NCBI RefSeq assembly: GCF_036250675.1 | Contig: NZ_CP109592.1 | Span: 2,480,001 to 2,544,000, forward strand | Direction: 5' to 3' | DNA from: Streptomyces sp. NBC_01689 | GTDB lineage: Bacteria; Actinomycetota; Actinomycetes; Streptomycetales; Streptomycetaceae | Length of the DNA stretch: 64,000 nt | The notes under the pieces: model-generated | What the model saw: the letters and a program-made list of their open reading frames with translations, nothing else | Told to the model about the DNA's origin: nothing | Databases searched by the model: none | Shown: piece after piece, positions 46,049 to 57,780 of the stretch | Layout: every line of letters starts with the position of its first letter | Numbering within the stretch: position 1 is the stretch's first letter | Made by a program: the position numbers and the translations under genes

Positions 46049-47203
46049 TCACTCGGTCCTCAGGGTGAACTCCACCCCGTCCCGGGCGAGTTCGTCGAGC
46101 CACTGTGCGGAGCGGGCCGCCGTCCCGGCGGCCCGGCACAGACCCGGGGGCAACGAGCCGTCGAGGATGTGCCGGACACCGAGGGCGAGGGTGCGGGAGA
46201 CGCAGCGCGCCATGGCGCTCTCGTCCGCGGTGCCTTCGAGGTCGAGGAGGTAGCGGCCGGACCACTCGGTGCCCGGCTCGCCCCGCACGTCCAGCGAGAC
46301 CACGAGGACGACGCGGTCGCGGTCCGTGTCCGTCGTCGGGTGGGCCGCCGCGAGTTCCCGGGCGAGGTCCGCGATCCGCCGGTCGTCGCCCGTCCTCAGC
46401 TCGGCGAAGACGGCGTCCCAGGCCCGCAGCCAGCCGTCCAGGCGGAGCGTGCCCCGGACGAACGTCTCCGGTGTCCAGGCGTCGGGGAGGCCGTACTGCC
46501 GGACGAAGGGCACGCTGTCCCGGTTGGGATAGACCTCGAAGGTCTCGCCGTCGACGAGCTGGGGCCGGGTCGCCTCCCAGGGACGCTCCACCGTGACGGG
46601 CACACCGTCCTCGATGTGGCGGGCCGGTGCGCGCAGGGCGCCCAGGACGCCGGCCGGCGCCCAGCTGAAGCGGTACCTGAAGTCGTCGGGCACCGCCGGG
46701 ACACCGCCGCAGAAGGACGTGAGGCGGTACGAGGCGGCCGTACCGTCCCCGATCGCCCGGCGGGCCCGGTCGACCAGACTCTGCGCGAAGAGGTGGTCGA
46801 CACCCGGGTCAAGCCCGCACTCCGTCAGCACCACCGTGCCGGCCGCCGTCGCCGCGGGCACCTGGGCTAGCACCGCGTCCGACACATAGCTGGAGCAGGC
46901 GAAGTGGGCGCCGCTCCGCACGCAGGCGGCGAGCAACTCGGCGTGTTCGGAAGCGGGCAGCATGGAGACCACGACGTCCCCGGGGGCGAGCGCGGCCGTG
47001 AGCGCGGGCCGTGTGTGGGCACGGGGATCGGCACGCCCGGTCAGGCCCAGCGCCTCGAGCCTCCGCGCCGCGCGCTCCTCGGTGCGGTGCCACAGGCGCA
47101 CCCGGTCGGCGACATCGCACACCGCGGCCAGACCGCTGCCGGTGGACAGACCCGCGCCGATCCAGTGCACGGTGCCGCTCGGCGCCCTGCCCCCGGTCGT
47201 CAT
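46049..47203 (-). CDS. Saccharopine dehydrogenase-like reductase (LYS9-type fold)
   Basis: A 384-residue NAD(P)-dependent enzyme of the saccharopine dehydrogenase (NADP, glutamate-forming) superfamily. The Rossmann start VHWIGAGLSTGSGLAAV, then LWHRTEERAARRL and the characteristic GTVVLTECGLDPGVDHL with LTSFCGGVPA are visible. It is the last gene of a five-gene minus-strand operon and overlaps the preceding gene by 4 bases (ATGA). With the LYS1-type partner it could work on saccharopine or another opine-like dicarboxylate; the direction of the reaction is not decided by sequence. Confidence 0.82.
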   Translation of the reverse strand: MTTGGRAPSGTVHWIGAGLSTGSGLAAVCDVADRVRLWHRTEERAARRLEALGLTGRADPRAHTRPALTAALAPGDVVVSMLPASEHAELLAACVRSGAHFACSSYVSDAVLAQVPAATAAGTVVLTECGLDPGVDHLFAQSLVDRARRAIGDGTAASYRLTSFCGGVPAVPDDFRYRFSWAPAGVLGALRAPARHIEDGVPVTVERPWEATRPQLVDGETFEVYPNRDSVPFVRQYGLPDAWTPETFVRGTLRLDGWLRAWDAVFAELRTGDDRRIADLARELAAAHPTTDTDRDRVVLVVSLDVRGEPGTEWSGRYLLDLEGTADESAMARCVSRTLALGVRHILDGSLPPGLCRAAGTAARSAQWLDELARDGVEFTLRTE

Positions 47204-48261
47204 CGCGCTCCTCCCGCTTCCGGCTCCTTCTCCAGGCCGATTTCACGGCACTCCCGCCGGAACCGGTCGAGACAGCGCTCCCAGGGGCGGCCGGCACCGA
47301 AGTCCAGGAGCTGCGGCAGCAGCGCCGCCGAGAAGTCGGTGCTCGCCTCCAGCGGCAGCAGGGACGGCAGGTTGTCGATGGCGATCAGGTCCAGGACGGG
47401 CCGCTCCCGCAGGCGGCGCACCGGACGCGTCCAGTCCGTGGTGGTGTCGTAGACCGGCAGCACGTTGAGCGGCGATCCGACGTCACAGGTCACGTCGCAC
47501 AGCGTGCGCAGCCGGCGGCCTGGCCTGTCGAGGTCCTCGACCGTGAGGAAGGGCGGGATCGGCCGGGTCGTGAGCACGGTGTTCACCATCACCTCGTGGT
47601 CCAGCAGGGCCGCCCGGTCCAGATCACGGGTCTCGGCGAGGTCCCAGCGGGTCGGCTCCGTCCCGGCGACACCGAACGCGGCGCGTGCGCCCCGGCCGCT
47701 GCGGCCGAGAGCGCCGATCACGAGGGCCGGCAACGGCCCGGCGCCCGCGGCGAGTTCCGCGTCCAGTTCCTCCCTCGACAGGGGGCCGAGCGGCGCCTTC
47801 AAGGCACCCCGGTGGTGCAGCACCGCCAGCGCCGCGCCCAGGTATCCGGCCCAGTAGCCGAAGGCGGCGAGCCGGCGCCCCTCGTCGTCGACCAGGTACT
47901 CCAGGTCGAGCAGGGCGCCACCGCCGGCGACGAACCTGCGCAGCAGCGCCTCGGCCCCCGGCTGCCGCTTGTAGGCGTGCCCGAAGAGGATGTGCCGGTG
48001 TGTCAGTTCGGCCGGTCCCTTGGGGAGTTCCTTGAGGCCGACGACCACGGCGTCCGGTGGTGCCGAGACCCAGGAGCCCGCCCCGGCGGTACGGCAGCCC
48101 GCCCTCTCGTACGCCTCGACCGGGAAGACCCGCTGCGGCGAGTCCTCCACGGTGATCGTCACGCCGGCGTCGACGAGCCGTGCGGCGTCCGAGGGCACGA
48201 CGGGCGTGCGCCGTTCGGTCGTACGGGTCTCGTGGCGCAGCCACAAGTGGAGTCCGGTCAT
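47200..48261 (-). CDS. Saccharopine dehydrogenase (NAD+, L-lysine-forming, LYS1-type)
   Basis: A 353-residue member of the alanine dehydrogenase/LYS1 family, which couples lysine and 2-oxoglutarate to saccharopine or the reverse. Visible features: LWLRHETRTTERRTPVVPSD at the N-terminus, VGLKELPKGPAELTHRHILFGHAYK, LDLEYLVDDEGRRLAAFGYWAGY, and the C-terminal IDNLPSLLPLEASTDFSAALLP. All are typical of fungal-type LYS1 homologues. ATG 48261 overlaps the upstream stop (ATGA). Operon context: amine oxidase and cyclodeaminase-family genes upstream. Confidence 0.85.
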   Translation of the reverse strand: MTGLHLWLRHETRTTERRTPVVPSDAARLVDAGVTITVEDSPQRVFPVEAYERAGCRTAGAGSWVSAPPDAVVVGLKELPKGPAELTHRHILFGHAYKRQPGAEALLRRFVAGGGALLDLEYLVDDEGRRLAAFGYWAGYLGAALAVLHHRGALKAPLGPLSREELDAELAAGAGPLPALVIGALGRSGRGARAAFGVAGTEPTRWDLAETRDLDRAALLDHEVMVNTVLTTRPIPPFLTVEDLDRPGRRLRTLCDVTCDVGSPLNVLPVYDTTTDWTRPVRRLRERPVLDLIAIDNLPSLLPLEASTDFSAALLPQLLDFGAGRPWERCLDRFRRECREIGLEKEPEAGGAR

Positions 48262-49403
48262 ACGAGGTTGACCTCCGGGCGCGGGGCGTCGGCGGCGAAG
48301 CGATCGACGCTCAGGGGGCTGATGTCGAGGAAGGGTACGCGGCCGAGGTACAGATCCCGGACCACCTCGCCGACCGCCGGTCCCTGCAGGAACCCGTGAC
48401 CGGAGAACCCGGTCGCGTACAGGAAGCGCGAGCACGAACGCGCCTCGCCGATCAGCGCGTTGTGGTCCGGCGTGATCTCGTAGAGCCCCGCCCAGCCGCC
48501 GGTGCGGGGCAGGTCGAGCAGGGCGGGCGCCCGGTGCCGCATGGCCCCGGCCAGCCGCGGGATCCACCGCTCGTGCGTCCCGGTGGCGAACCCGGGTGTC
48601 TCGTCGGGGTCGGACATGCCGACGAGGAGCCCCGGGCCCTCGGCGTGGAAGTAGAGGCTGGTGGTGAAGTCGATGGTCATCGGCAGACCGGGCGGCAGTC
48701 CGGGGACGGGTCCGGTGACGGCGATCTGACGGCGCAGCGGCTGCACGGGCAGATCCACTCCGGCCATCGCGCCGACGCGCCGCGACCAGGCACCGGCCGC
48801 GCAGACGACGGTGCCGGTGGCGATCCGGCCGCCGGTGGTGACCACCCCGGTGACGGTGTCCCCGCGGGTCTCGATGCCGGTGACCTCGCAGTGCCGCAGC
48901 AGGGTCGCCCCGTGCCGGCGGGCTCCGGCCGCGTAGCCCTGGACCACCGACTCGGGAGTGCAGTGGCCGTCGTCCGGGGAGAACGCGGCGGCCAGCAGGC
49001 CCTCGGTGGTGATGAGCGGGGACAGCCGGCGTGCCTCGGCGGGGTCGATCAGCCGGCTGGGCACTCCGAGCGTGTTCTGCAGCCTGACGCCGTCCTCGAA
49101 GGCCGCGACCTCCTCGGGCGTGGAGAGCAGGAACAGGTAGCCGACCCGGTGCAGACCGATGTCCTGGCCGGGTTCCTCTCCGAAGCGGGCGAACGCCTCC
49201 AGGCTGCGGGCGCCCAGCCGGATGTTGAGTTCGTCGGAGAACTGCGCGCGGACGCCGCCCGCGGCCCGCGCGGTGGAGCCGGAGGCGAGTTCGCCGCGCT
49301 CGACCAGCACGACGTCCCGGACACCCGCGCGGGCCAGGTGGTAGGCGATGCTCGTCCCGATCACACCGCCGCCGATGACGACGACCTGAGCGGTCCCCTT
49401 CAC
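48258..49403 (-). CDS. FAD-dependent amine/amino-acid oxidase (DadA/DAO family)
   Basis: A 381-residue flavoprotein of the glycine/D-amino-acid oxidase family. FAD motif VVVIGGGVIGTSIAYHLARAG at the N-terminus, ASGSTARAAGGVRAQFSDE at about 45, and a C-terminal ITPDHNALIGEA with GFSGHGFLQGPAVGEVV closing the FAD site. GTG 49403 overlaps the previous stop (GTGA). Between a cyclodeaminase-family gene and LYS1, a saccharopine- or lysine-oxidising role is the natural hypothesis; sarcosine-oxidase-like activity on another secondary amine is the alternative. Confidence 0.87.
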   Translation of the reverse strand: MKGTAQVVVIGGGVIGTSIAYHLARAGVRDVVLVERGELASGSTARAAGGVRAQFSDELNIRLGARSLEAFARFGEEPGQDIGLHRVGYLFLLSTPEEVAAFEDGVRLQNTLGVPSRLIDPAEARRLSPLITTEGLLAAAFSPDDGHCTPESVVQGYAAGARRHGATLLRHCEVTGIETRGDTVTGVVTTGGRIATGTVVCAAGAWSRRVGAMAGVDLPVQPLRRQIAVTGPVPGLPPGLPMTIDFTTSLYFHAEGPGLLVGMSDPDETPGFATGTHERWIPRLAGAMRHRAPALLDLPRTGGWAGLYEITPDHNALIGEARSCSRFLYATGFSGHGFLQGPAVGEVVRDLYLGRVPFLDISPLSVDRFAADAPRPEVNLV

Positions 49404-50386
49404 CGCCGTGCCCGCCGGGCGCGGGCCGCGTCGATCACGGCCCAGGCCGCAGCGGCGTCCTGGATGCCGAGTCCGACACTGTTGTAGAGGACGATGTCGT
49501 CCGGGCCGGTGCGTGCCGTGTGGCCGCCGGTCAGGACGCCGCCGAGCGGGATCAGGTCGTCCGGCGTGAGGACGCCCCGGGCCAGCGCCTCGACCACCGG
49601 TCCGGCGTGTTCGGCGGCCGTCACCGGATCGTCGACCACCACCGCCGCGGCACGCCGCACCACCTCGGCGTCCACCTCGCTGCGGGTGGGTTCGAACGAT
49701 CCCACGCTGACGACCGTGCACCCCGGCGCCAGCCACTCCCCCCGCACGACGGGCGTACGGCTGAGGGTGCAGGCCGCGACCATCGACGCTCCGGCGACCG
49801 CGTCCCGCGCGGTGCCGGCCGCCTCGACGGCGATGCCCAGTTCGGCGGCGAGCTGCCGGGCCGCCTCCGCCCGCCGACCGGGGTGCGGGCTCCACACCCG
49901 TACGGACCGCAGTTCCCGTACCCGGGCGACGGCCCGCGCGTGGGCGAGCGCCTGGGTGCCGGAGCCCAGCAGGCCGAGCTCCGCGCTGTCCGCGGTGGCC
50001 AGCGCGTCGAGGGCGACGGCGCTGGCGGCGGCGGTGCGCAGGGTCGTGACCGCCGTGCCGTCCATGACCGCGGCGAGCCGCCCGGTCACCGGGTCGAGCG
50101 CGTTGATCACCGCGTGGACGGTCGGCAGACCGGCTCCGGCGTTCCCCGGGTTGACGCTGCCGAACTTGGCGACGGCACCGGTGTCCGCGGACAGCCGGGC
50201 CAGATAGGCGAAGACCACGCTGTCGTCGAACCGGCTGGGGTGCATGATCTTGCCGGGCAGCTCCGCGGTGCCGTCGCCGAGCGCGGTGAACGCCGCGCGC
50301 TGTGAGGCGATCGCCGCGTCGGTGTCCAGCAGTTCCACGACCTGCTCACGGGACAGGTACAGCGGTCCGGCGTCGTCTTCTGTCAT
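49400..50386 (-). CDS. Ornithine cyclodeaminase / mu-crystallin family protein
   Basis: A 328-residue NAD(P)-dependent enzyme. The family block AKFGSVNPGNAGAGLPTVHA followed by MDGTAVTTLRTAAASAVALD is clear at about 75-130, then the Rossmann GLLGSGTQALAHARAV and the C-terminal VLYNSVGLGIQDAAAAW. Members include ornithine and lysine cyclodeaminases, ketimine (piperideine-carboxylate) reductases and opine-type dehydrogenases. Next to saccharopine enzymes, a ketimine-reductase role leading to pipecolate is plausible. Overlaps the cyclohydrolase gene (ATGA). Confidence 0.85.
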   Translation of the reverse strand: MTEDDAGPLYLSREQVVELLDTDAAIASQRAAFTALGDGTAELPGKIMHPSRFDDSVVFAYLARLSADTGAVAKFGSVNPGNAGAGLPTVHAVINALDPVTGRLAAVMDGTAVTTLRTAAASAVALDALATADSAELGLLGSGTQALAHARAVARVRELRSVRVWSPHPGRRAEAARQLAAELGIAVEAAGTARDAVAGASMVAACTLSRTPVVRGEWLAPGCTVVSVGSFEPTRSEVDAEVVRRAAAVVVDDPVTAAEHAGPVVEALARGVLTPDDLIPLGGVLTGGHTARTGPDDIVLYNSVGLGIQDAAAAWAVIDAARARRARR

Positions 50387-51111
50387 TCCTCAGTGATAGC
50401 CGCCTTCGCCGTTCCGCAAAAGATCGCCTTCGTCCAGTCGCCGCCGTCCAGGTGGGGAAGGAAGTGGTCGAGGCGCTCCCGCTTGGTCAGCAGGTAGGCG
50501 AGGTTCTCCTCGCACGGCGGTATCAGCAGCGGCACCTGCTCGGCGACCCTGATGCCGTTGCGCTGCAGCGACTCACGCTTGCGCGGGTTGTTCGAGAGCA
50601 GGCGCACCGACCGTACGCCGAGGTCGTGCAGCATGTTCGCGGCCACCCGGTAGTCGCGGGCGTCGACCGGCAGGCCGAGGGCGACGTTCGCCTCCACCGT
50701 GTCGAGGCCCTCCGACTGGAGCTTCATCGCCTGCAGCTTGGCGAGCAGACCGATGCCGCGGCCCTCGTGGCCCCGGAGGTAGACGAGGACGCCGCGTCCC
50801 TCCGCGACGATGGCGCGCAGTGCCGCGCCGAGCTGGTCGCCGCACTCGCAGTGCGTGGATCCGAAGGCGTCGCCGGTGAGGCACTCGGAATGGAGCCGGG
50901 TGAGGACGCCTTCCTTCGTCGCGTCCCCTCCGCCCCCGGCGAGATCGCCGACCTCCCCGTGGACCAGGATCACCTGCTCCTCACCGCGGTCGTGGTCCAG
51001 GTACCCGACCGCCTGGAAATTGCCGTACACGGTGGGCAGAGGGGCGATCACGACTCGTTCGACACCAGAGCGGCGCGCGGTCCCGGCAAGTACTGCGAAG
51101 TCATCTGTCAT
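50383..51111 (-). CDS. GTP cyclohydrolase II paralogue with Tyr-to-Met active-site change
   Basis: A 242-residue GTP cyclohydrolase II-type enzyme. The zinc ligands are intact (HSECLTGDAFGSTHCECGDQL, Cys77, Cys88, Cys90), as are YLRGHEGRGIGLLAKL and LLSNNPRK. In the stretch KLQAMKLQ, residue 129 is Met where E. coli RibA has the important Tyr105 (KIRAYALQ). A Streptomyces coelicolor paralogue (SCO6655) with this Met is reported to release the formylated intermediate FAPy instead of the deformylated riboflavin precursor. ATG 51111 has AGGA eight bases upstream. It leads the minus-strand operon into the saccharopine genes and is divergent from the creatininase gene. Confidence 0.92.
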   Translation of the reverse strand: MTDDFAVLAGTARRSGVERVVIAPLPTVYGNFQAVGYLDHDRGEEQVILVHGEVGDLAGGGGDATKEGVLTRLHSECLTGDAFGSTHCECGDQLGAALRAIVAEGRGVLVYLRGHEGRGIGLLAKLQAMKLQSEGLDTVEANVALGLPVDARDYRVAANMLHDLGVRSVRLLSNNPRKRESLQRNGIRVAEQVPLLIPPCEENLAYLLTKRERLDHFLPHLDGGDWTKAIFCGTAKAAITEE

Positions 51112-51127
51112 GATCTGGTTCCTAAGC

Positions 51128-51151
51128 AGAGTCGAAAGAAGAGTCGAAAGG
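51128..51151. repeat. 12-bp tandem repeat in the divergent promoter
   Basis: AGAGTCGAAAGA (51128-51139) is followed directly by AGAGTCGAAAG in the 49-base gap between the divergent cyclohydrolase and creatininase genes. It may be a direct-repeat regulator site. The second copy also touches the ribosome-site region of the creatininase gene. Confidence 0.5.
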
Positions 51152-51160
51152 CCGTGAAAC

Positions 51161-51964
51161 ATGAGTGGTTCGGGAACGCACTCGACGGTGTCCGGCCTGT
51201 TGCCGGCGGACACCACGGAGGATGTGCGCGAGCGGGGGGCCGGTGTCGCCCGTCAGATCGCGGTGCTTCCCGTGGGGAGTTTCGAACAGCACGGGGCGTT
51301 CCTGCCGTTGGCGACGGACACGCTGGTCGCGTGTGCCGTCGCGCGTGAGATCGCCGCCGCCCATCCGGTACACCTCCTTCCTCCGTTGACGATCTCCTGC
51401 TCGCACGAACACGCCGCGTGGCCGGGGACCGTCAGCATTTCCGCCGTCACGCTGCACGCGGTGGTGCGTGACATAGCCGAATCGCTGCGCCACTCCGGTG
51501 TGGACACCCTGGTGCTCGTCAACGGGCACGGCGGCAATTACGTGTTGGGCAATGTCGTCCAGGAATCCGCGGGCACCGGTACGCGCATGGCGCTTTTCCC
51601 GGCCGCGGAGGACTGGGAAGCCGCGCTCGAACGGGCCGGTGTGGAAACCTCGTTGCTCACGGATATGCACGCGGGAGAAATCGAGACCTCCATTCTGCTG
51701 CACACTCACCCGGAATTGATCCGGCCCGGTTACGAGACGTCCGACTTCGTCGTGGACGACCGGCGTCATCTGCTCACCCTCGGTATGGCCGGCTATACCG
51801 AGTCCGGTGTCATCGGCCGTCCCTCGAAGGCGTCCGCGGAGAAGGGCGAGGAGCTCCTCGCGGGGCTCACCGACGCCTTCGGGGCGTACTTCTCGCTGCT
51901 GACGGAGAAGACACTTCCGTCGGCGGGGACGGGCACTTCGGCGGTCGCTGAATCCCGGCACTGA
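51161..51964 (+). CDS. Creatininase-family amidohydrolase (ArfB-like FAPy deformylase candidate)
   Basis: A 267-residue metal-dependent amidohydrolase. All creatininase-family metal motifs are present: GSFEQHGAFLPLATDT near residue 40, LVNGHGGNYVLGNVV near 125 and DMHAGEIETS near 170. The archaeal member ArfB deformylates FAPy phosphate in flavin/F420 biosynthesis. Divergence from a probable FAPy-forming cyclohydrolase makes that reaction the leading hypothesis here. MftE and creatininase itself are other family functions. The last 172 bases overlap the convergent membrane-protein gene. Confidence 0.85.
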   Translation: MSGSGTHSTVSGLLPADTTEDVRERGAGVARQIAVLPVGSFEQHGAFLPLATDTLVACAVAREIAAAHPVHLLPPLTISCSHEHAAWPGTVSISAVTLHAVVRDIAESLRHSGVDTLVLVNGHGGNYVLGNVVQESAGTGTRMALFPAAEDWEAALERAGVETSLLTDMHAGEIETSILLHTHPELIRPGYETSDFVVDDRRHLLTLGMAGYTESGVIGRPSKASAEKGEELLAGLTDAFGAYFSLLTEKTLPSAGTGTSAVAESRH

Positions 51965-53145
51965 TCCTGCCCTCCTGCGTTCTCCTGCCGCGGACGCCGC
52001 AGCGCCGCGAACCAGCGGACGAACAGGACCGCGAGGCCGGGCAGGGCGGCGGCGAAGCTGAGCACCCCGTAGATCACGGCGACGCTCAGGCCCATGCCGG
52101 CACCCAGCCCCGCGGCCCCGAACGCCCAGGCCATGACGCCTTCCCGGGGACCCCAGCCACCGACGTTGAGCGGCAGGCCCATGGCGAGCAGGGCCAGCAG
52201 CGCCAGCGGCAGCAGCTCGGCCACGGACGCGGCCGATCCGGCGACCCGGGCGGCGATCAGGAACATGGCCAGGTGCCCGGCGAGCACGACGACCGACGAG
52301 AGAAGCACACCCGGCCAGCTGCCGCGGGCCAGCAGCACGCCGCGGGCCTCGGTGAGCAGGGCGCGGACGGCGCCGAACCGGCCGGAGGAGGCGGTCGGCC
52401 GGGCCCTGCGGACCACGCCCACCGTGACCGCCGCGCCCGCCGCGACGATCGCCAGGACGAGAGCCAGCCGCCGGGCGTCGTCGAGGACCGGCGACGGCTG
52501 GGTGAGCAGGACGACGGCCCCGACGGCGACCAGAACGGCCTGTCCGGCGGTCCGTTCGAGGACCACCGCGCGCACTCCGCGCCCGATGTCCCCCGCGCTC
52601 TGGCCGTGCCGCACCGCGCGGTGCACGTCGCCGAGGACACCGCCGGGGAGCGCCGCGTTCAGGAACAGCGCCCGGTAGTAGTCGGCGACGGCGCCCGCCA
52701 GCGGCAGCCGGATGCGCAGCCCGCGGGCGACCAGGCACCAGCGCCACGCGCTGAACACCGTGGTGAGCAGCCCGAGGCCGACCCCGGCCAGCAGGGTCGG
52801 GACGTCGATCCTGCGCAGCCCGTCCAGGAAGACCCCGGTGCCGAGCCGCCAGAGCAGGACGCCGAGGATGGCCGCGCCGGCGACGGTGCCGAAGTGGGTG
52901 CGCAGACGGCGGGAGTCGAACAGCGCCCGCAGCGCTCCGCCCCGGGGCCGGGCCTCGGCCGCCGGGGCCGGGGTACTCGGCCCGGCCGCGCGGCCGGCAC
53001 GGGGGCCCGGCGCCGTCCGGCCGGCCGTCGCGGACGGGAGCGCGACGACGCGGGCGGCACCGCCACGGATCCGCAGGACGACGCGCCGGCCGAGGGCGGG
53101 GGCCGTGCCGGTGTCCGGACCGACGGCCTGCACGCCCGTGCTCAC
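51793..53145 (-). CDS. Lysylphosphatidylglycerol synthase-type TM protein (UPF0104/AglD-like)
   Basis: A 450-residue membrane protein. After about 85 variable residues come eight or so hydrophobic segments (GAAILGVLLWRLGTGVFLDG, LLAGVGLGLLTTVFSAWRWC, YYRALFLNAALPGGVLGDVH and, near the end, LPLALLALLAMGLPLNVGGW). GGWGPREG and the LFLNAALPGG loop are typical of the LPG_synthase_TM (PF03706) family, which includes lipid flippases and AglD-like proteins. GTG 53145 overlaps the methyltransferase stop. The final 60 residues run antisense through the end of the creatininase gene, so the tail is probably non-conserved. Confidence 0.82.
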   Translation of the reverse strand: MSTGVQAVGPDTGTAPALGRRVVLRIRGGAARVVALPSATAGRTAPGPRAGRAAGPSTPAPAAEARPRGGALRALFDSRRLRTHFGTVAGAAILGVLLWRLGTGVFLDGLRRIDVPTLLAGVGLGLLTTVFSAWRWCLVARGLRIRLPLAGAVADYYRALFLNAALPGGVLGDVHRAVRHGQSAGDIGRGVRAVVLERTAGQAVLVAVGAVVLLTQPSPVLDDARRLALVLAIVAAGAAVTVGVVRRARPTASSGRFGAVRALLTEARGVLLARGSWPGVLLSSVVVLAGHLAMFLIAARVAGSAASVAELLPLALLALLAMGLPLNVGGWGPREGVMAWAFGAAGLGAGMGLSVAVIYGVLSFAAALPGLAVLFVRWFAALRRPRQENAGGQDQCRDSATAEVPVPADGSVFSVSSEKYAPKASVSPARSSSPFSADAFEGRPMTPDSV

Positions 53146-54197
53146 TTCGCACCGCCCTTCGGCCGCGGCAGCGCCAGGACGTCGCTGTGGTGCACGACCA
53201 CACGCAACTCGCCCGCCGCGCAGGCCTCCAGACGGGAGCGCAGGTACGATTCCGCACGCTCCGCCAGCTCGGGCCGCTGCTCGACGGCCGCTCCGACCCA
53301 GCCACGCAGCCACTCCTCGGTGAGCGCGGCCTCCTGGGGTCCGAGCCGCCAGGGACTCGGATGCACCCGGACGGTCGCGTCGTGCCGGTCGAACGCCTCG
53401 CAGGCCGCCGTGATCGCGTCCGGACCGAGCAGTTCCCCGCGCCGCTGGTGGGCGTTGAACGCCTCGGCGAACTCGGCGTCCAGCGGGTCGCCCGGCGCGA
53501 ACTCGACGCGGCCCGCGACGGAGAGCGTCAGCAGGGCCGGGACCCCGGCCTCCGCGCAGGCCACCGCGAGCCGGTCGATCTCCTCACGGGTGAGGACGTC
53601 CAGCAGGGCGGACGCGGTCACCAGCGAGGCGCCGGTCAGCGCGTCCGCGGTCAGCCGGCTGATGTCGCCGCGCTGGGTGGTGACCGTGACCCGGCTGCCG
53701 TCGGCGGCCGCCGCGGGCGAGCCCACCGTCGCGAAGTGCAGCAGGTACGGGTCCCGGTCGTGCAGGACCCAGTGCTGGGCGCCGTCCAGGCGCGGGGCGA
53801 GCCAGCGCCCCATCGAGCCGGTGCCGCAGCCCAGGTCGTGGATGACCAGATCGCCGCCGCGCCGGGGCAGGTTGGCCAGCCGGATGCGCAGCGGGTCGAG
53901 CAGGTCGGCCGCCCGGGCCGCGGCGTCGGCCGGTTCCCGCAGCTGGAGCCACTGCGGGGCGTAGCGGGGCGCGTCGTCGTCGGGGGTGTCCGCGCGCCGC
54001 CCGGGAGCACCCGGAGGGTTCGTGGTCGGTCCCGCCCCGGGAACCACCCGCTTCACGTCCTGACGCGCGGCGCCGGTCTGCTTCGTGTGCCGGCCGGCGG
54101 CGCCGGCCTGCGGCGCGCTCTGGTCCGCGCCACCGCTACCGGGTGTGCGGGGCGCGCCCTGCCGGGGGGAGTCCGCGCCGGTCGCCTGCGTCCTCAT
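53142..54197 (-). CDS. Class I SAM-dependent methyltransferase
   Basis: A 351-residue protein. The first 80 or so residues are disordered (Gly/Gln/Pro-rich). The Rossmann methyltransferase core begins with motif I VIHDLGCGTGSMGRWLAP near residue 120, then WVLHDRDPYLL and SLVTASALLDVLTREEIDRLA. The substrate cannot be told. It is coupled by 4-bp overlaps to both the glycosyltransferase and the membrane-protein genes, so these three plus the PTPS homologue form one transcription unit. Confidence 0.85.
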   Translation of the reverse strand: MRTQATGADSPRQGAPRTPGSGGADQSAPQAGAAGRHTKQTGAARQDVKRVVPGAGPTTNPPGAPGRRADTPDDDAPRYAPQWLQLREPADAAARAADLLDPLRIRLANLPRRGGDLVIHDLGCGTGSMGRWLAPRLDGAQHWVLHDRDPYLLHFATVGSPAAAADGSRVTVTTQRGDISRLTADALTGASLVTASALLDVLTREEIDRLAVACAEAGVPALLTLSVAGRVEFAPGDPLDAEFAEAFNAHQRRGELLGPDAITAACEAFDRHDATVRVHPSPWRLGPQEAALTEEWLRGWVGAAVEQRPELAERAESYLRSRLEACAAGELRVVVHHSDVLALPRPKGGAK

Positions 54198-55396
54198 GCC
54201 GCCCTCCGGGGTTCCTGCGGAAGCCGTGCCAGTACGCCCGCCAGGCTGCGGGCCGTGGCGGCCCAGCCGTCCAGCGAGGCGCGCCTGCCGCGGGCGGCCG
54301 CCTTGAGCCGGCGGCGGACGTCGGCCTCGCCGAACCAGCCGCGCAGTTCCACGGCCAGCGCGGCCGGGTTCTCCGGGGGGACGAGGATGCCGGGCACCCC
54401 GCCGTCGGGCGCGCGCCCGACCGCTTCGGGCAGTCCGCCGACATCCGTCGCGAGCACCGGAATGCCCCGGGCGAGCGCCTCGGTGACGGCCATGCCGTAC
54501 GTCTCGGCGTACGAGGTGAGGACCATGAGGTCGGCCGCGGCGTAGCTGGCGTCGAGCTCCGCGCCCGCCTGCGGGCCGGCCAGGTGCAGCCGGTCGCCGA
54601 GGCCGTACTTCTCGATGAGGCCGCGCAGTTGGGCCACGTACGCCGGGTCCTGGGTGAGTCCGCCGACGCAGACGCAGCTCCAGGGCAGGTCGGTGACGGT
54701 GGCGAGGGCCTCGATCAGCCGGTGCTGGCCCTTGCGCGGGCTGACCGTCGCGACGCACAGGAGCCGCGAGACGCCGTCGGTGCCGGAGGCGAGCGGGGCG
54801 ATGTCGGCGCCGGGAGCGGCGACATGCACCCGCTCGGGGGCGAGTCCGTGGTGGGCTACGAGCCGGCGGACCGCCCACTCGCTGGTGGCGACGACGGCCG
54901 ACACGGCCCGCAGGGTGGTGCGTTCCTTCGCGTCCAGCTCGGCGGCGACGGCCGGCGCGAGGCCGGTCTCGTCGCCGAGCGGCAGGTGCACCAGCACGAC
55001 GAGGCGCAGCCGTTCGGCCTCGGGGACGATGATCTCGGGGACGCCGCAGGCGACGATGCCGTCGAGGAGGACGACCGTGTCGTCCGCCAGCTCGGCCAGG
55101 GTGCGGGCGAGTTCGGTGCGGGCGGCAGCCGCGGGCCGCGGCCAGTCGCCCGGGACCGCGTGCCGGTGGACCTGCCAGCCGAAGCCTGGGAGGTCCAGAC
55201 AGACCCGCCGGTCGTAGGCGTTGCCGCCACTGGGCGCGGACGCGTCGTCGACGCCGCCCGGCATCACGAAGTGTACGGAGCGCAGGGACATGGGGATGAT
55301 CGCCGCATTCTTGAGAGCGGTGTGCTGCACCGGCATGTAGTTCAGGGACGACCGGTCGCTGTCCGCGGCCGGCCTGCCGAGGGTGGTGTCGGTCAC
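54194..55396 (-). CDS. GT4-family glycosyltransferase
   Basis: A 400-residue retaining GT-B glycosyltransferase. The N-terminal acceptor region has the [20 protein letters not shown] loop, and the C-terminal nucleotide-sugar site has the EX7E motif in [41 protein letters not shown] starts the donor domain. No signal or TM segment, so it acts at the cytosolic face. GTG 55396 overlaps the PTPS-homologue stop (GTGA). Confidence 0.88.
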
Positions 55397-55791
55397 AGGT
55401 CACGCTCGTAACTCGCCCACGCGATGTGCGACTCGTGCAGGGTGACCGTGATGCCCGAGAGTCCGTGCGCGCCCTCGCCCAGCGCTCCCGCGTGCACGCG
55501 CTCGGCGAGGCGGTCGGCGACGACCTTGGCCAGGAACTCCGTCGAGGTGTTCGTGTTCTTGAAGTCCGGCTCGTTGTCGAGGTTGCGGTAGTTCAACGCG
55601 CTCACGACGGCGCCGAGTTCCTGGGTGGCCAGACCGATGTCGACGACGATGTTGTCGTCGTCCAGTTCGGCACGGCGAAACGTGGCGTCCACCAGGAACG
55701 TCGCTCCGTGCAGGCGCTGCGCGGGGCCGAAGACCTCGCCACGGAAGCTGTGGGCGATCATCAGGTGATCGCGGACGGTGATGCTGAACAA
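55393..55791 (-). CDS. 6-pyruvoyltetrahydropterin synthase/QueD homologue, degenerate active site
   Basis: A 132-residue T-fold protein. The alignment to QueD is readable by eye ([30 protein letters not shown]). His14 and His28 of the zinc site are kept, but the HGH motif is HGA (Ala30), the catalytic Cys position is Ala24, and the DHH motif reads LNYRNLDN without the His pair. Ordinary PTPS or CPH4 synthase chemistry is therefore unlikely. TTG 55791 has GGAGG eight bases upstream. It leads the operon with the glycosyltransferase and methyltransferase. A similar S. coelicolor protein (SCO6650, as I recall) is known. Confidence 0.85.
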
Positions 55792-55928
55792 CGGACGACC
55801 CTCCAGGTGCGGTACGTCTGATCCCCTGCCGGGACCACGCCGTGTAGTACGGCTGCCCCGTTCTCCTTGTTCAGCTGCCTGTTCCCCTTTCTTCGCAGTC
55901 TTCGGAGGTCAGGCCGGTTGCCCGGCGC

Positions 55929-56909
55929 TCAAACCCGGTCGTAGACGACTCGGTGGCACAGCCCCGGTATCGATCCGGAGGCGAGTTTCGCCATCACGCC
56001 GGGCAGTTCCGCGAAGTCGCACTCTCCGGTGACGAGTGCGTCGAAGGCGGGCTCGGCGAGCAGTTCGAGGGCGAGCGCGAGCCGGTCGGCGTAGGTCCGG
56101 CCGGGCCGGGCCGCCGGTGAAACGGAACCCACCTGGCTGCTGCGCACGACCAGGCGGCGGGAGTGGAACGCCTCCCCCAGCGGCAGGCTGACCCGCCGGT
56201 CCCCGTACCAGCTCATCTCCAGGACCGTCCCCTCGCGGGCGAGGAGTTCCAGCGCCCGGGTGAGTCCGGCCTCCGTGGCGCTGGCGTGCACGACGAGGTC
56301 GCATTCGCCGGCGGCCTCGCCGGGCAGCGCGAAGTCGACGCCGAGGGCGCGGGCGATGCCGGCCCGGGTGGGATCGGCGTCGACGAGCTGGACCCGGACG
56401 CCCGGGAAGCGGGCCAGAAGAGCGGCGACGGAGCAGCCGACCATGCCGCCGCCGATCACCGCGATCCGGTCGCCGACCAGCGGGGCGGCGTCCCACAGGG
56501 CGTTCACCGCGGTCTCCACCGTCCCGGCGAGGACGGCGCGGGCGGCGGGCACCGAGTCCGGCACGACCGTCACGGCGCTCACCGGGACGACGTACCGCGT
56601 CTGGTGCGGATACAGGCAGAACACCGTCCTGCCCATCAGCCCCGCCGGGCCTTCCTCCACCTGGCCGACGCTCAGATAGCCGTATTTCACCGGTCCGGGG
56701 AAATCCCCGTCCTGGAACGGTGCACGCATCGAAGCATGCTGACTTTCCGGCACGCCGCCACGGAAGACGAGGGACTCGGTGCCCCGGCTGACTCCGGAGT
56801 AGAGCGTGCGCACGAGCACCTCGCCCTCCTCGGGGGCCGACAGGGCCACCTCGCGTATCTCGCCGCGGCCGGGCGAGCCCAGCCAGAACGCGCGAGCTGT
56901 GAGTTCCAT
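55929..56909 (-). CDS. MDR (zinc-type alcohol dehydrogenase) family oxidoreductase
   Basis: A 326-residue medium-chain dehydrogenase/reductase. The GroES-like N-terminus reads VRTLYSGVSRGTESLVFRGG, and the Rossmann fold starts at RIAVIGGGMVGCSVAALLA near 165. The catalytic-zinc Cys and structural-zinc Cys cluster of classic alcohol dehydrogenases are absent, as in zinc-free MDR members. ATG 56909 has AGGGGGA upstream. It stands 137 bases before the PTPS-homologue gene on the same strand and probably serves the same pathway. Confidence 0.82.
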   Translation of the reverse strand: MELTARAFWLGSPGRGEIREVALSAPEEGEVLVRTLYSGVSRGTESLVFRGGVPESQHASMRAPFQDGDFPGPVKYGYLSVGQVEEGPAGLMGRTVFCLYPHQTRYVVPVSAVTVVPDSVPAARAVLAGTVETAVNALWDAAPLVGDRIAVIGGGMVGCSVAALLARFPGVRVQLVDADPTRAGIARALGVDFALPGEAAGECDLVVHASATEAGLTRALELLAREGTVLEMSWYGDRRVSLPLGEAFHSRRLVVRSSQVGSVSPAARPGRTYADRLALALELLAEPAFDALVTGECDFAELPGVMAKLASGSIPGLCHRVVYDRV

Positions 56910-57015
56910 GAGCGTCCCCCTGAACGATCGAGCAGATCTTCACGTACGGAGCGGTGACAAGCCGCGCACGGTACGCGGCGTTGATCGACTCTGTCATATG
57001 GCCGGAGGATGTGCG

Positions 57016-57780
57016 GTGGCCCTGAACAACACGTACGACGCGAGGCTCCTGGCTCAGGAGACCACGGTGGGAGCGGGTGTGCAGCTCCTGGTCCTGGCTC
57101 TGCTGGGCACGGCGATCGGGATGGGGCCCGCGGGCTGGCTGACCGGCCTGGCCTTCGCGATCGCCACCTGGGCGGTCCTGACCCGCGCCCTGCGCCGCTC
57201 CCGGCCCCGCTCCTTCGGACCGGCCAATCGGGTGACCCTCGGCCGCGCGATCCTGGTCGGCGGGGTCACCGCGCTGGTCGCGGACTCCTTCCAGAGCTCG
57301 CCCCCGGTCACCCTGCTCGTCGGTCTCACGGCGGTCGCCCTGATCCTCGACGGGGTCGACGGGAAGGTCGCGCGCCGCACCGGCACCTCGACCGCCCTCG
57401 GCGCGCGTTTCGACATGGAGGTCGACGCGTTCCTGATCCTCGTGCTCAGCGTGTACGTGTCGATGTCGCTCGGTCCCTGGGTGCTGCTGATCGGCACCAT
57501 GAGGTACGTGTTCGTGGCCGCGGCCCGGGTCCTCCCGTGGCTGAACGCGGCGCTGCCGCACAGCATGGCCCGCAAGACCGTGGCGGCCCTCCAGGGGATC
57601 GTGCTGCTCGTCGCCGGCGCCGGGATCATGCCGCGGGAGGCGGACGCCGCCACGGTGCTGCTGGCGCTCGCGCTGCTGGTCTGGTCGTTCGGCCGCGACA
57701 TCGTGTGGCTGTGCCGCCACCGCCACCAGCACCCGCGGGAGCAGCGGCAGACCGTGCGCGAGCTCGCCGAGGTGGGCTGA
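57016..57780 (+). CDS. CDP-alcohol phosphatidyltransferase family protein
   Basis: A 254-residue membrane enzyme that transfers a CDP-linked phospho-alcohol or phosphatidyl group. The full family signature D-x2-DG-x2-AR-x8-G-x3-D-x3-D is visible from DGVDGKVARR to FDMEVD at about residues 115-140. Around it are six or so TM segments. GTG 57016 has GGAGGA six bases upstream, which decides against the in-frame ATG 56998. It is divergent from the MDR gene. Suggests that the local pathway has a lipid or polyol-phosphate step. Confidence 0.88.
   Translation: MALNNTYDARLLAQETTVGAGVQLLVLALLGTAIGMGPAGWLTGLAFAIATWAVLTRALRRSRPRSFGPANRVTLGRAILVGGVTALVADSFQSSPPVTLLVGLTAVALILDGVDGKVARRTGTSTALGARFDMEVDAFLILVLSVYVSMSLGPWVLLIGTMRYVFVAAARVLPWLNAALPHSMARKTVAALQGIVLLVAGAGIMPREADAATVLLALALLVWSFGRDIVWLCRHRHQHPREQRQTVRELAEVG

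Follow-up and report, generated by a model that had tools for sequence, protein, structure and literature searches.

A gene cluster common to many actinobacteria that probably converts GTP into a sugar-bearing small molecule

The window, a 64,000-nt stretch of Streptomyces sp. NBC_01689 (contig NZ_CP109592.1, positions 2,480,001 to 2,544,000), contains a block of eight genes, which are listed with the abbreviations used here in Table 1. The gene families had all been named in an earlier, sequence-only reading of this DNA and were borne out, the methyltransferase with a weak profile match. That reading also placed the GCH2 gene back to back with a complete CRE gene, and coordinates and profiles agree. 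Neighbouring genes share 4 bp in the pairs QueD/GT4, GT4/MT and MT/LPG, and the 3' ends of the LPG and CRE genes overlap by 172 bp. A leftward OCD-DAO-LKR-SDH run, which went unmentioned in the sequence-only reading, overlaps GCH2 and is carried by a minority of relatives. It was rejected as a part of the pathway, as the loci searched gave 16 matches for SDH, 14 for LKR, 9 for DAO and 4 for OCD, compared to 88 for QueD. Labels of SDH at the GCH2 position in relatives' loci were spurious antisense matches and were ignored.

Table 1. Features of the locus, in window coordinates.
Feature	Position	Strand	Basis and remarks
OCD-DAO-LKR-SDH run, outside the conserved core	46049-50386	-	4-bp overlap with GCH2
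GCH2, GTP cyclohydrolase II paralogue, 242 aa	50383-51111	-	PF00925, 211 bits (cut-off 23.3); predicted to stop at FAPy
Met129 codon of GCH2, at the E. coli RibA Tyr105 position	50725-50727	-	alignment to 2bz0
GCH2/CRE divergent intergenic region, 49 bp between start codons	51112-51160	.	sequence
CRE, creatininase-family amidohydrolase, 267 aa	51161-51964	+	PF02633, 206 bits; predicted FAPy formamidase
LPG, LPG_synthase_TM (PF03706) membrane protein	51793-53145	-	103 bits
MT, SAM-dependent methyltransferase	53142-54197	-	PF13649, 27.4 bits (cut-off 27), weak
GT4 glycosyltransferase, MshA-like fold	54194-55396	-	PF00534, 105 bits; AF2 model, PDB matches
QueD/PTPS-like T-fold protein, TTG start, without HGH motif	55393-55791	-	PF01242, 80 bits (cut-off 22.4); 3d7j, E 1.6e-75
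MDR dehydrogenase, BchC-like	55929-56909	-	BchC-type NCBIfam match and predicted fold
CDP-alcohol phosphotransferase	57016-57780	+	PF01066, 54 bits; alternative start as early as 56806

The genome-neighbourhood comparison proposed with the sequence-only reading came out in its favour, as the genes co-occur across Streptomyces and across genera. All eight stand together in each of the 38 main loci fetched from Streptomyces, representing 38 of the 61 genomes which carry the QueD-like gene. The GCH2 paralogue and the QueD-like gene occur in an identical set of 61 of the 119 genomes of the order (the sets were matched by hand), and this, together with the 38 intact blocks, makes the arrangement more than chance. 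CRE is present in all 61 of these genomes and in 65 of the 119 overall, the four additional genomes carrying outside relatives that score below 300 bits. The cluster gene is absent from the other 58 genomes, and the cluster is therefore dispensable. In a phylum-wide search matches were obtained in 49 of 396 genomes, those outside the class being mostly weak. MT and CRE vary between lineages. GT4, the QueD-like protein and MDR form a near-invariant core, and the CDP-alcohol phosphotransferase and the LPG-type membrane protein are present in most lineages.

Tyr at position 105 of E. coli RibA is needed for formation of the deformylated product, and the S. coelicolor paralogue SCO6655 reportedly releases FAPy. 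The window GCH2 lacks this Tyr. The residue was compared with the presence of CRE in two sets of loci, which have one locus in common. The G-set (78 loci) gave 52 with a Tyr-less GCH2 and CRE, 13 with a Tyr GCH2 and no CRE, one with a Tyr-less GCH2 and CRE about 13 kb away, and 12 with neither gene; the corresponding figures for the named set (80 loci) were 28 Tyr-less with CRE, 34 Tyr without CRE and 18 with neither. A Tyr GCH2 was found together with CRE in no locus of either set. Among the 128 cluster loci with GCH2 (one a duplicate), the Tyr is replaced by M, L, H, Q or C in 81, every one with CRE (about 13 kb off in one case), and is kept in 47, every one without CRE. A RibD_C reductase accompanies all 47 Tyr enzymes, in two loci (L123 and L124) as a GCH2-RibD_C fusion. 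The zinc cysteines of GCH2 are intact in 128 of 128 proteins by a relaxed pattern and in 111 by a strict one, and GCH2 and CRE are retained together despite a separation of more than 2 kb in 16 of 75 loci. This pairing supports two routes from GTP to 2,5-diamino-6-ribosylamino-4(3H)-pyrimidinone 5'-phosphate (DARoPP), one using a single enzyme and the other a putative FAPy-releasing cyclohydrolase with a putative formamidase of the creatininase family. The earlier proposal of a split from GTP through FAPy to a deformylated pyrimidine is thus backed by the distribution of residue, CRE and RibD_C across loci.

The sequence-only reading had emphasised a Tyr-to-Met change. Met129 was confirmed, but with five different replacements seen the decisive point is taken to be that Tyr is lost, and the idea that Met as such matters was rejected. 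Locus L102 was dropped as a counter-example when its genome proved to have CRE about 13 kb from QueD, beyond the stretch first fetched. Locus L183, taken at one point for a cluster CRE without a cluster GCH2, was also rejected; its CRE (58% identity) neighbours an NsdA-type gene and does not belong to the cluster type. Locus L125 (genome G111), where a Met GCH2 with a short N-terminus stands alone and both QueD and CRE are missing, counts against the coupling. On a 62-row tree the two traits were identical in every row and six changes were needed. As one of these depends on a contig that is cut short, the link comes down to a single gain and about four losses of both traits together; a sign test gave p 0.25. 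In the independent-origin test CRE presence was a single change on the cluster tree, so that the association is statistically one event and no significance is claimed for it. In addition, most Tyr loci have a cluster GCH2 from another subfamily than the Tyr-less enzymes, and Tyr is therefore not the sole difference between the two types.

The S. coelicolor orthologue of the QueD-like protein is SCO6650, whose structure is PDB 3d7j. The window protein passes the general Pfam PTPS model and scores 34.8 bits against TIGR03367, below the cut-off of 89.25. HGH is the zinc motif of QueD/PTPS proteins; a pattern search found HGA in its place in 157 of 160 loci and HGV in one, and of the other two proteins one has HGA by eye and one is missing that stretch. 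The description of a degenerate QueD/PTPS homologue is in keeping with this. The 3d7j structure is reportedly without zinc. MDR falls below the Pfam ADH domain cut-off and carries SGVSRGTE where the usual MDR zinc-site motif stands (a motif pattern missed 21 of 153 proteins). AF2 models of GT4 and MDR had mean pLDDT values of 90.7 and 85.2, respectively. Their PDB fold searches were generic, giving MshA-like proteins for GT4 and polyol and threonine dehydrogenases for MDR, and pointed to no particular substrate. For MT and the CDP-alcohol phosphotransferase, sequence searches of the PDB were uninformative. The catalytic motif of the latter is kept in 132 of 134 loci.

We interpret the eight-gene block as a biosynthetic cluster of Actinomycetota which leads from GTP to a tailored metabolite via DARoPP, with the first step split in the window's branch, and put the probability of this reading at roughly 0.7. 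In this branch GCH2 would open the ring of GTP and stop at FAPy, we propose because the Tyr is missing, and CRE would then take off the formyl group to give DARoPP. In other branches the Tyr-bearing GCH2 would carry out both steps, with the RibD_C (ArfC-like) reductase acting next. The T-fold protein, of pterin-binding type with the zinc motif lost, MDR and GT4 would then work on the product. Methyl transfer would be added in many lineages, and steps by the CDP-alcohol phosphotransferase and LPG-type protein in most.

In an alternative reading FAPy itself could be the pathway intermediate, with CRE hydrolysing a different, later amide or acting as a peptidase like MftE. The best-scoring profile for CRE is indeed MftE (TIGR03964, 128.5 bits against a cut-off of 172), and it scores well against creatininase too, compared to 36.3 bits against the ArfB profile NF033501 (cut-off 180). 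Furthermore, the outside relatives nearest to the cluster type have a regulator-linked context, an NsdA-family gene lying beside CRE in L074, L075, L076 and L077, in L074 also with a GntR-type regulator; at the fifth locus, L078, the one gene tested gave no NsdA match. (A mycofactocin-like origin of these relatives, guessed from gene sizes, was rejected on finding NsdA-family neighbours in four of the five fetched loci.) Against this, the GCH2 of clusters without CRE has the Tyr, no replacement amidase was seen among the annotated gene families shared by the loci, and CRE was never found in a locus without a Tyr-less GCH2. The metal-ligand motifs are kept in all 80 cluster CREs, the ligand residues being assigned, on our assumption, from creatininase. 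BrbF of Sinorhizobium/Brucella, described in 2022 and annotated as a creatininase, deformylates FAPy (AFRPP) to DARoPP (PMC9478397), so the family is able to catalyse the step. A later amide or a peptide as substrate is thus improbable, and we predict from sequence that CRE is a FAPy formamidase.

The predicted product of GCH2 and CRE, a deformylated pyrimidine, is the ordinary riboflavin intermediate, and in Sinorhizobium it is riboflavin synthesis in which BrbF acts (PMC9478397). The pair might then be an extra riboflavin supply line parked in a glycolipid-type cluster, but this we regard as quite improbable, since the window's genome encodes two more GCH II proteins, a profile search gave no match to RibB, RibH or RibE among the eight window genes, and the reductases scanned in relatives belong to the stand-alone RibD_C class. 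TIGR01508 (ArfC-type reductase) is the best profile for those of L091 and L096, although at 133.8 and 124 bits its cut-off of 186.45 is not reached; ribD_Cterm scores higher for L053 and L044. No RibD_C was found in the window's own cluster, nor a close copy of the Streptomyces type elsewhere in its genome, which counts against the preferred scheme; the L091 type is absent from the window. A chance or merely co-regulated neighbourhood of unrelated sugar/lipid and nucleotide modules is very improbable. GT4, LPG and the CDP-alcohol phosphotransferase alone would fit a glycolipid, and a second locus of the window's genome has the QueD and MDR pair without the other cluster genes, but the genes remain linked across genera through rearrangements and the short overlaps in the window join QueD to GT4, MT and LPG.

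The preferred reading, a GTP-derived pathway through DARoPP, can be set beside several known systems. The locus resembles SCO6650-SCO6655 of S. coelicolor, the last of these named GTP cyclohydrolase II (PMC2853524). Its QueD-like gene corresponds to SCO6650, and by gene numbering SCO6651-SCO6654 would match the four genes that separate QueD from GCH2. To our knowledge only single proteins of that region have been studied, through the 3d7j structure and the biochemistry of SCO6655, and the literature searched gave no account of the cluster, of where it occurs or of the coupling to CRE. The widespread cluster marked out here gives a reason for FAPy release by a Streptomyces cyclohydrolase and puts the orphan structure SCO6650 into a context. 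The proposed scheme shares with archaeal ArfA/ArfB/ArfC the steps from GTP via FAPy to DARoPP (PMC9478397). In the archaeal riboflavin route reduction then precedes any deamination, an order that the scheme would keep. It differs in that it starts with a GCH II enzyme, whereas ArfA is a GCH III, in that the window CRE lies outside the ArfB profile, and in that the genes around CRE point to a glycosylated product and not to riboflavin. The bacterial parallel of ArfA/ArfB put forward earlier therefore stands in part: the comparison of loci supports the split of the steps, but CRE fails the ArfB profile and, because BrbF is already known, such a parallel is not itself new. BrbF and CRE share the creatininase fold with intact metal ligands, formamidase activity being established for BrbF and predicted for CRE. 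BrbF is alphaproteobacterial and serves riboflavin, and its FAPy-making partner is still missing there (PMC9478397), whereas the partner of CRE would be the nearby Tyr-less GCH II, a candidate for the type of enzyme sought.

The product would be a pterin or pyrimidine that bears a sugar and is perhaps attached to a lipid. Pterin glycosides are known from cyanobacteria, and the PDB sequence matches of GT4 include a tetrahydrobiopterin glucosyltransferase (9v0l, E 7e-6), which transfers a sugar to a pterin; MshA-type enzymes match better, and this hit therefore does not tell what the acceptor is. A bolder and rather doubtful extension is a new class of GTP-derived metabolite, a pterin or ribityl-diaminopyrimidine, glycosylated and in many cases methylated, that would serve as a membrane-lipid headgroup, possibly of the sporulating mycelium, with ring closure by the zinc-motif-less T-fold protein with MDR and the split cyclohydrolase step in one branch. 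The lipid-headgroup part of this draws on the CDP-alcohol phosphotransferase and the LPG-type membrane protein.

All eight genes of the proposed cluster were found where the sequence-only reading had placed them. The start codons of the GTP cyclohydrolase II paralogue (GCH2) and the creatininase-family protein (CRE) are separated by 49 bp, and successive 4-bp overlaps run along the genes for the QueD-like T-fold protein, the GT4 glycosyltransferase, the methyltransferase (MT) and the LPG_synthase_TM protein (LPG). A gap of 137 bp separates QueD from the MDR dehydrogenase gene upstream, from which the CDP-alcohol phosphotransferase gene (CDP) is divergent. The genome of 9.96 Mb encodes three GCH II proteins. 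The Tyr-to-Met change ascribed to GCH2 was seen on alignment, where Met129 corresponds to Tyr105 of E. coli RibA, a residue which we take to be needed for the deformylated product. The QueD-like protein is the orthologue of SCO6650. The run of ornithine cyclodeaminase-, DAO-, LKR- and saccharopine dehydrogenase-like genes to the left of GCH2 resembles an amino acid operon of the lysine type and is variable, only some relatives having it.

Locations of the features discussed; positions without a locus or genome prefix are those of the window
Feature	Location	Strand	Remark
GCH2	50383-51111	minus	divergent from CRE
CRE	51161-51964	plus	divergent from GCH2
Amino acid gene run	46049-50386		4-bp overlap with GCH2
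GCH II-RibD_C fusion	L123:11314-12672		
GCH II-RibD_C fusion	L124:12996-14930		
Second MDR and QueD-like pair	G000:C1:9323884-9327424		window's genome; L034, ~6.6-10.1 kb
Lone GCH2	G111:C10:93675-94184		L125

Among 119 genomes of the order, the QueD-like gene was present in 61, all in the window's genus. These 61 genomes also have paralogue-type GCH2 (threshold at least 290 bits) and CRE. Beyond them, the searches gave, for GCH2, a short lone copy of 258 bits in genome G111 and, for CRE, four outside relatives below 300 bits; the three genome sets were matched by hand from search rows. The eight genes, which had been proposed to belong together, were looked for in 40 neighbourhoods: all 38 main loci among them hold the genes as one block, and in the remaining two, which are paralogue loci, QueD is either alone or accompanied by MDR. 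GCH2 is at the opposite end of the block in L050 and L126. In the window's genome the second copies of MDR and of the QueD-like gene (79% and 75-76% identical, respectively) are about 3 kb apart; genes for a GDSL lipase, MarR, an ECF sigma factor and an AfsR-like SARP lie nearby. A lone QueD copy (L035) is found near ECF sigma and SARP genes.

Within the class, the QueD-like gene was found in 57 of 394 genomes and 25 of 137 genera. All 38 matches from 37 genomes of other genera were extracted as L087-L124, several being cut by contig ends. A scan of named genomes confirmed at least 582 relatives; the best 80 of these were analysed, and came from Streptomyces, Micromonospora, Salinispora, Actinomadura, Pseudonocardia, Amycolatopsis, Saccharopolyspora, Nocardioides, Terrabacter, Modestobacter and others, with some Thermoleophilia MAGs. 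Gene content was counted where QueD had 6 kb or more on both sides, in 130 loci after removal of one duplicate: MDR 127, GT4 125, LPG 120, CDP 119, GCH2 114, MT 111, CRE 75 and a RibD_C-family reductase 61. GT4-QueD-MDR is the near-invariant core, and the cluster is real, conserved and functionally coherent. QueD-MDR-GT4 also occurs on a 3-kb contig (L201) labelled Inquilinus limosus, an alphaproteobacterium, by contamination or transfer. Seven clusters from other genera, L089, L095, L097 and L103 among them, share an MFS transporter and one more gene, which in L089 is a Methyltransf_19 gene.

For each locus, the residue at the Tyr105 position was set against whether CRE is also there, with profile score thresholds chosen in this analysis. 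In the G-set of 78 loci, 52 had a residue other than Tyr together with CRE (Met 40, Leu 7, His 4, Gln 1), 13 had Tyr without CRE and 12 had neither gene. L102 was the sole non-Tyr locus (Leu) without CRE in the fetched stretch, and there is a CRE in the same genome approximately 13 kb from QueD. The corresponding numbers for the named set of 80 loci were 28 (Met 22, His 4, Gln 1, Cys 1), 34 and 18, some of the last on short contigs; L041 and L191 are a single locus counted in both sets. Tyr GCH2 together with CRE was observed in none of these 78 and 80 loci. The coupling is more than adjacency, because GCH2 and CRE are over 2 kb apart in 16 of 75 loci. Tyr was present in all of 20 other GCH II copies compared, and the lone G111 copy, with its short N-terminus, has Met. 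No other cluster genes were found near that copy, and no CRE in the G111 genome; it is perhaps a remnant.

On a first tree (MDR, QueD and GT4, 68 loci picked from those with GCH2) CRE state changed once, with full support. On a second, of 62 chosen loci with GCH2-less ones added, non-Tyr GCH2 and CRE states agreed in every row and six changes were needed; three independent pairs on well-supported branches gave a sign test p of 0.25. Of these six, the change at L173 reflects a truncated contig, and the remainder are one gain and four joint losses of GCH2 and CRE (G446/G347, G293, L159/L164 and L183/L224). Whole-genome searches of G446, G347 and G293 found in each a single GCH II, which is of Tyr type, and no cluster-type CRE; for L159, L164, L224 and L206 the genome-wide search covered CRE and found none above 44% identity. 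The CRE of the L183 genome was rejected as a cluster CRE, being NsdA-linked. Outside CRE relatives (56-61% identical) directly adjoin NsdA-family regulators in L074, L075, L076, L077 and L229, which suggests a creatininase-regulator pair. In a GCH2 tree built from 62 of 87 rows, with the genus thinned, the Tyr-less GCH2 of the window's genus formed one clade and that of family f19 another; the two may have had a single origin. In the same tree, 11 of the 13 Tyr clusters have a GCH2 of another subfamily, which suggests that one module took the place of the other.

Zinc cysteines are kept in 128 of 128 cluster GCH2 under a relaxed pattern, and ring opening should be retained. The Tyr-less enzyme should release FAPy, the formylated product, as SCO6655 reportedly did in the biochemistry of Spoonamore in 2006, a study that PMC3509567 cites. 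Creatininase metal ligands are kept in 80 of 80 cluster CRE, a predicted FAPy formamidase by analogy with alphaproteobacterial BrbF. BrbF, itself a creatininase-family protein, is shown to deformylate FAPy, and its partner cyclohydrolase in its own system is unknown (PMC9478397). The front half of the proposed pathway, GTP to FAPy to a deformylated pyrimidine, is well supported by comparison; for its split cyclohydrolase step, Archaea and BrbF offer precedents. Loss of GCH2 and CRE in some clusters fits DARoPP, the ordinary riboflavin intermediate, as the product, since housekeeping enzymes also supply it. All steps after DARoPP we infer. The T-fold protein, in which HGA replaces HGH, plausibly binds a 2-amino-4-oxopyrimidine. 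MDR resembles BchC and has SRGTE in 132 of 153 loci, and GT4 is MshA-like. A lipid link is possible, since 132 of 134 loci keep an intact CDP-alcohol motif.

A RibD_C reductase is present in 47 of 47 Tyr loci; in the two scanned (L091 and L096) the best profile was the archaeal ArfC type, below cut-off. Early-branching clusters of the window's genus have a different RibD_C, approximately 30% identical, placed between CRE and LPG, and RibD_C is present also in Saccharopolyspora (L180). In two distant relatives GCH2 and RibD_C are fused, and a search of each genome found no GCH II besides the fusion; an HAD-family gene overlaps that of L123. No deaminase domain was found within either fusion protein, which suggests the 2,5-diamino series. 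For the Streptomyces-type RibD_C the best match in the window's genome has 34% identity and is no close copy, so that the step is absent in this branch or performed by another enzyme.

A literature search covering few subscription papers gave no recognised description of the cluster or of an actinomycete GCH2/CRE pair. SCO6655 appears in a gene table where most entries are upregulated in stationary phase (PMC2853524). Expression of S. coelicolor SCO6652, which we infer from gene order to be the cluster methyltransferase, rises in the second mycelium when cultures sporulate, by 4.3 log2 units at 48 h and 4.1 at 72 h (PMC3610822, Table 3).
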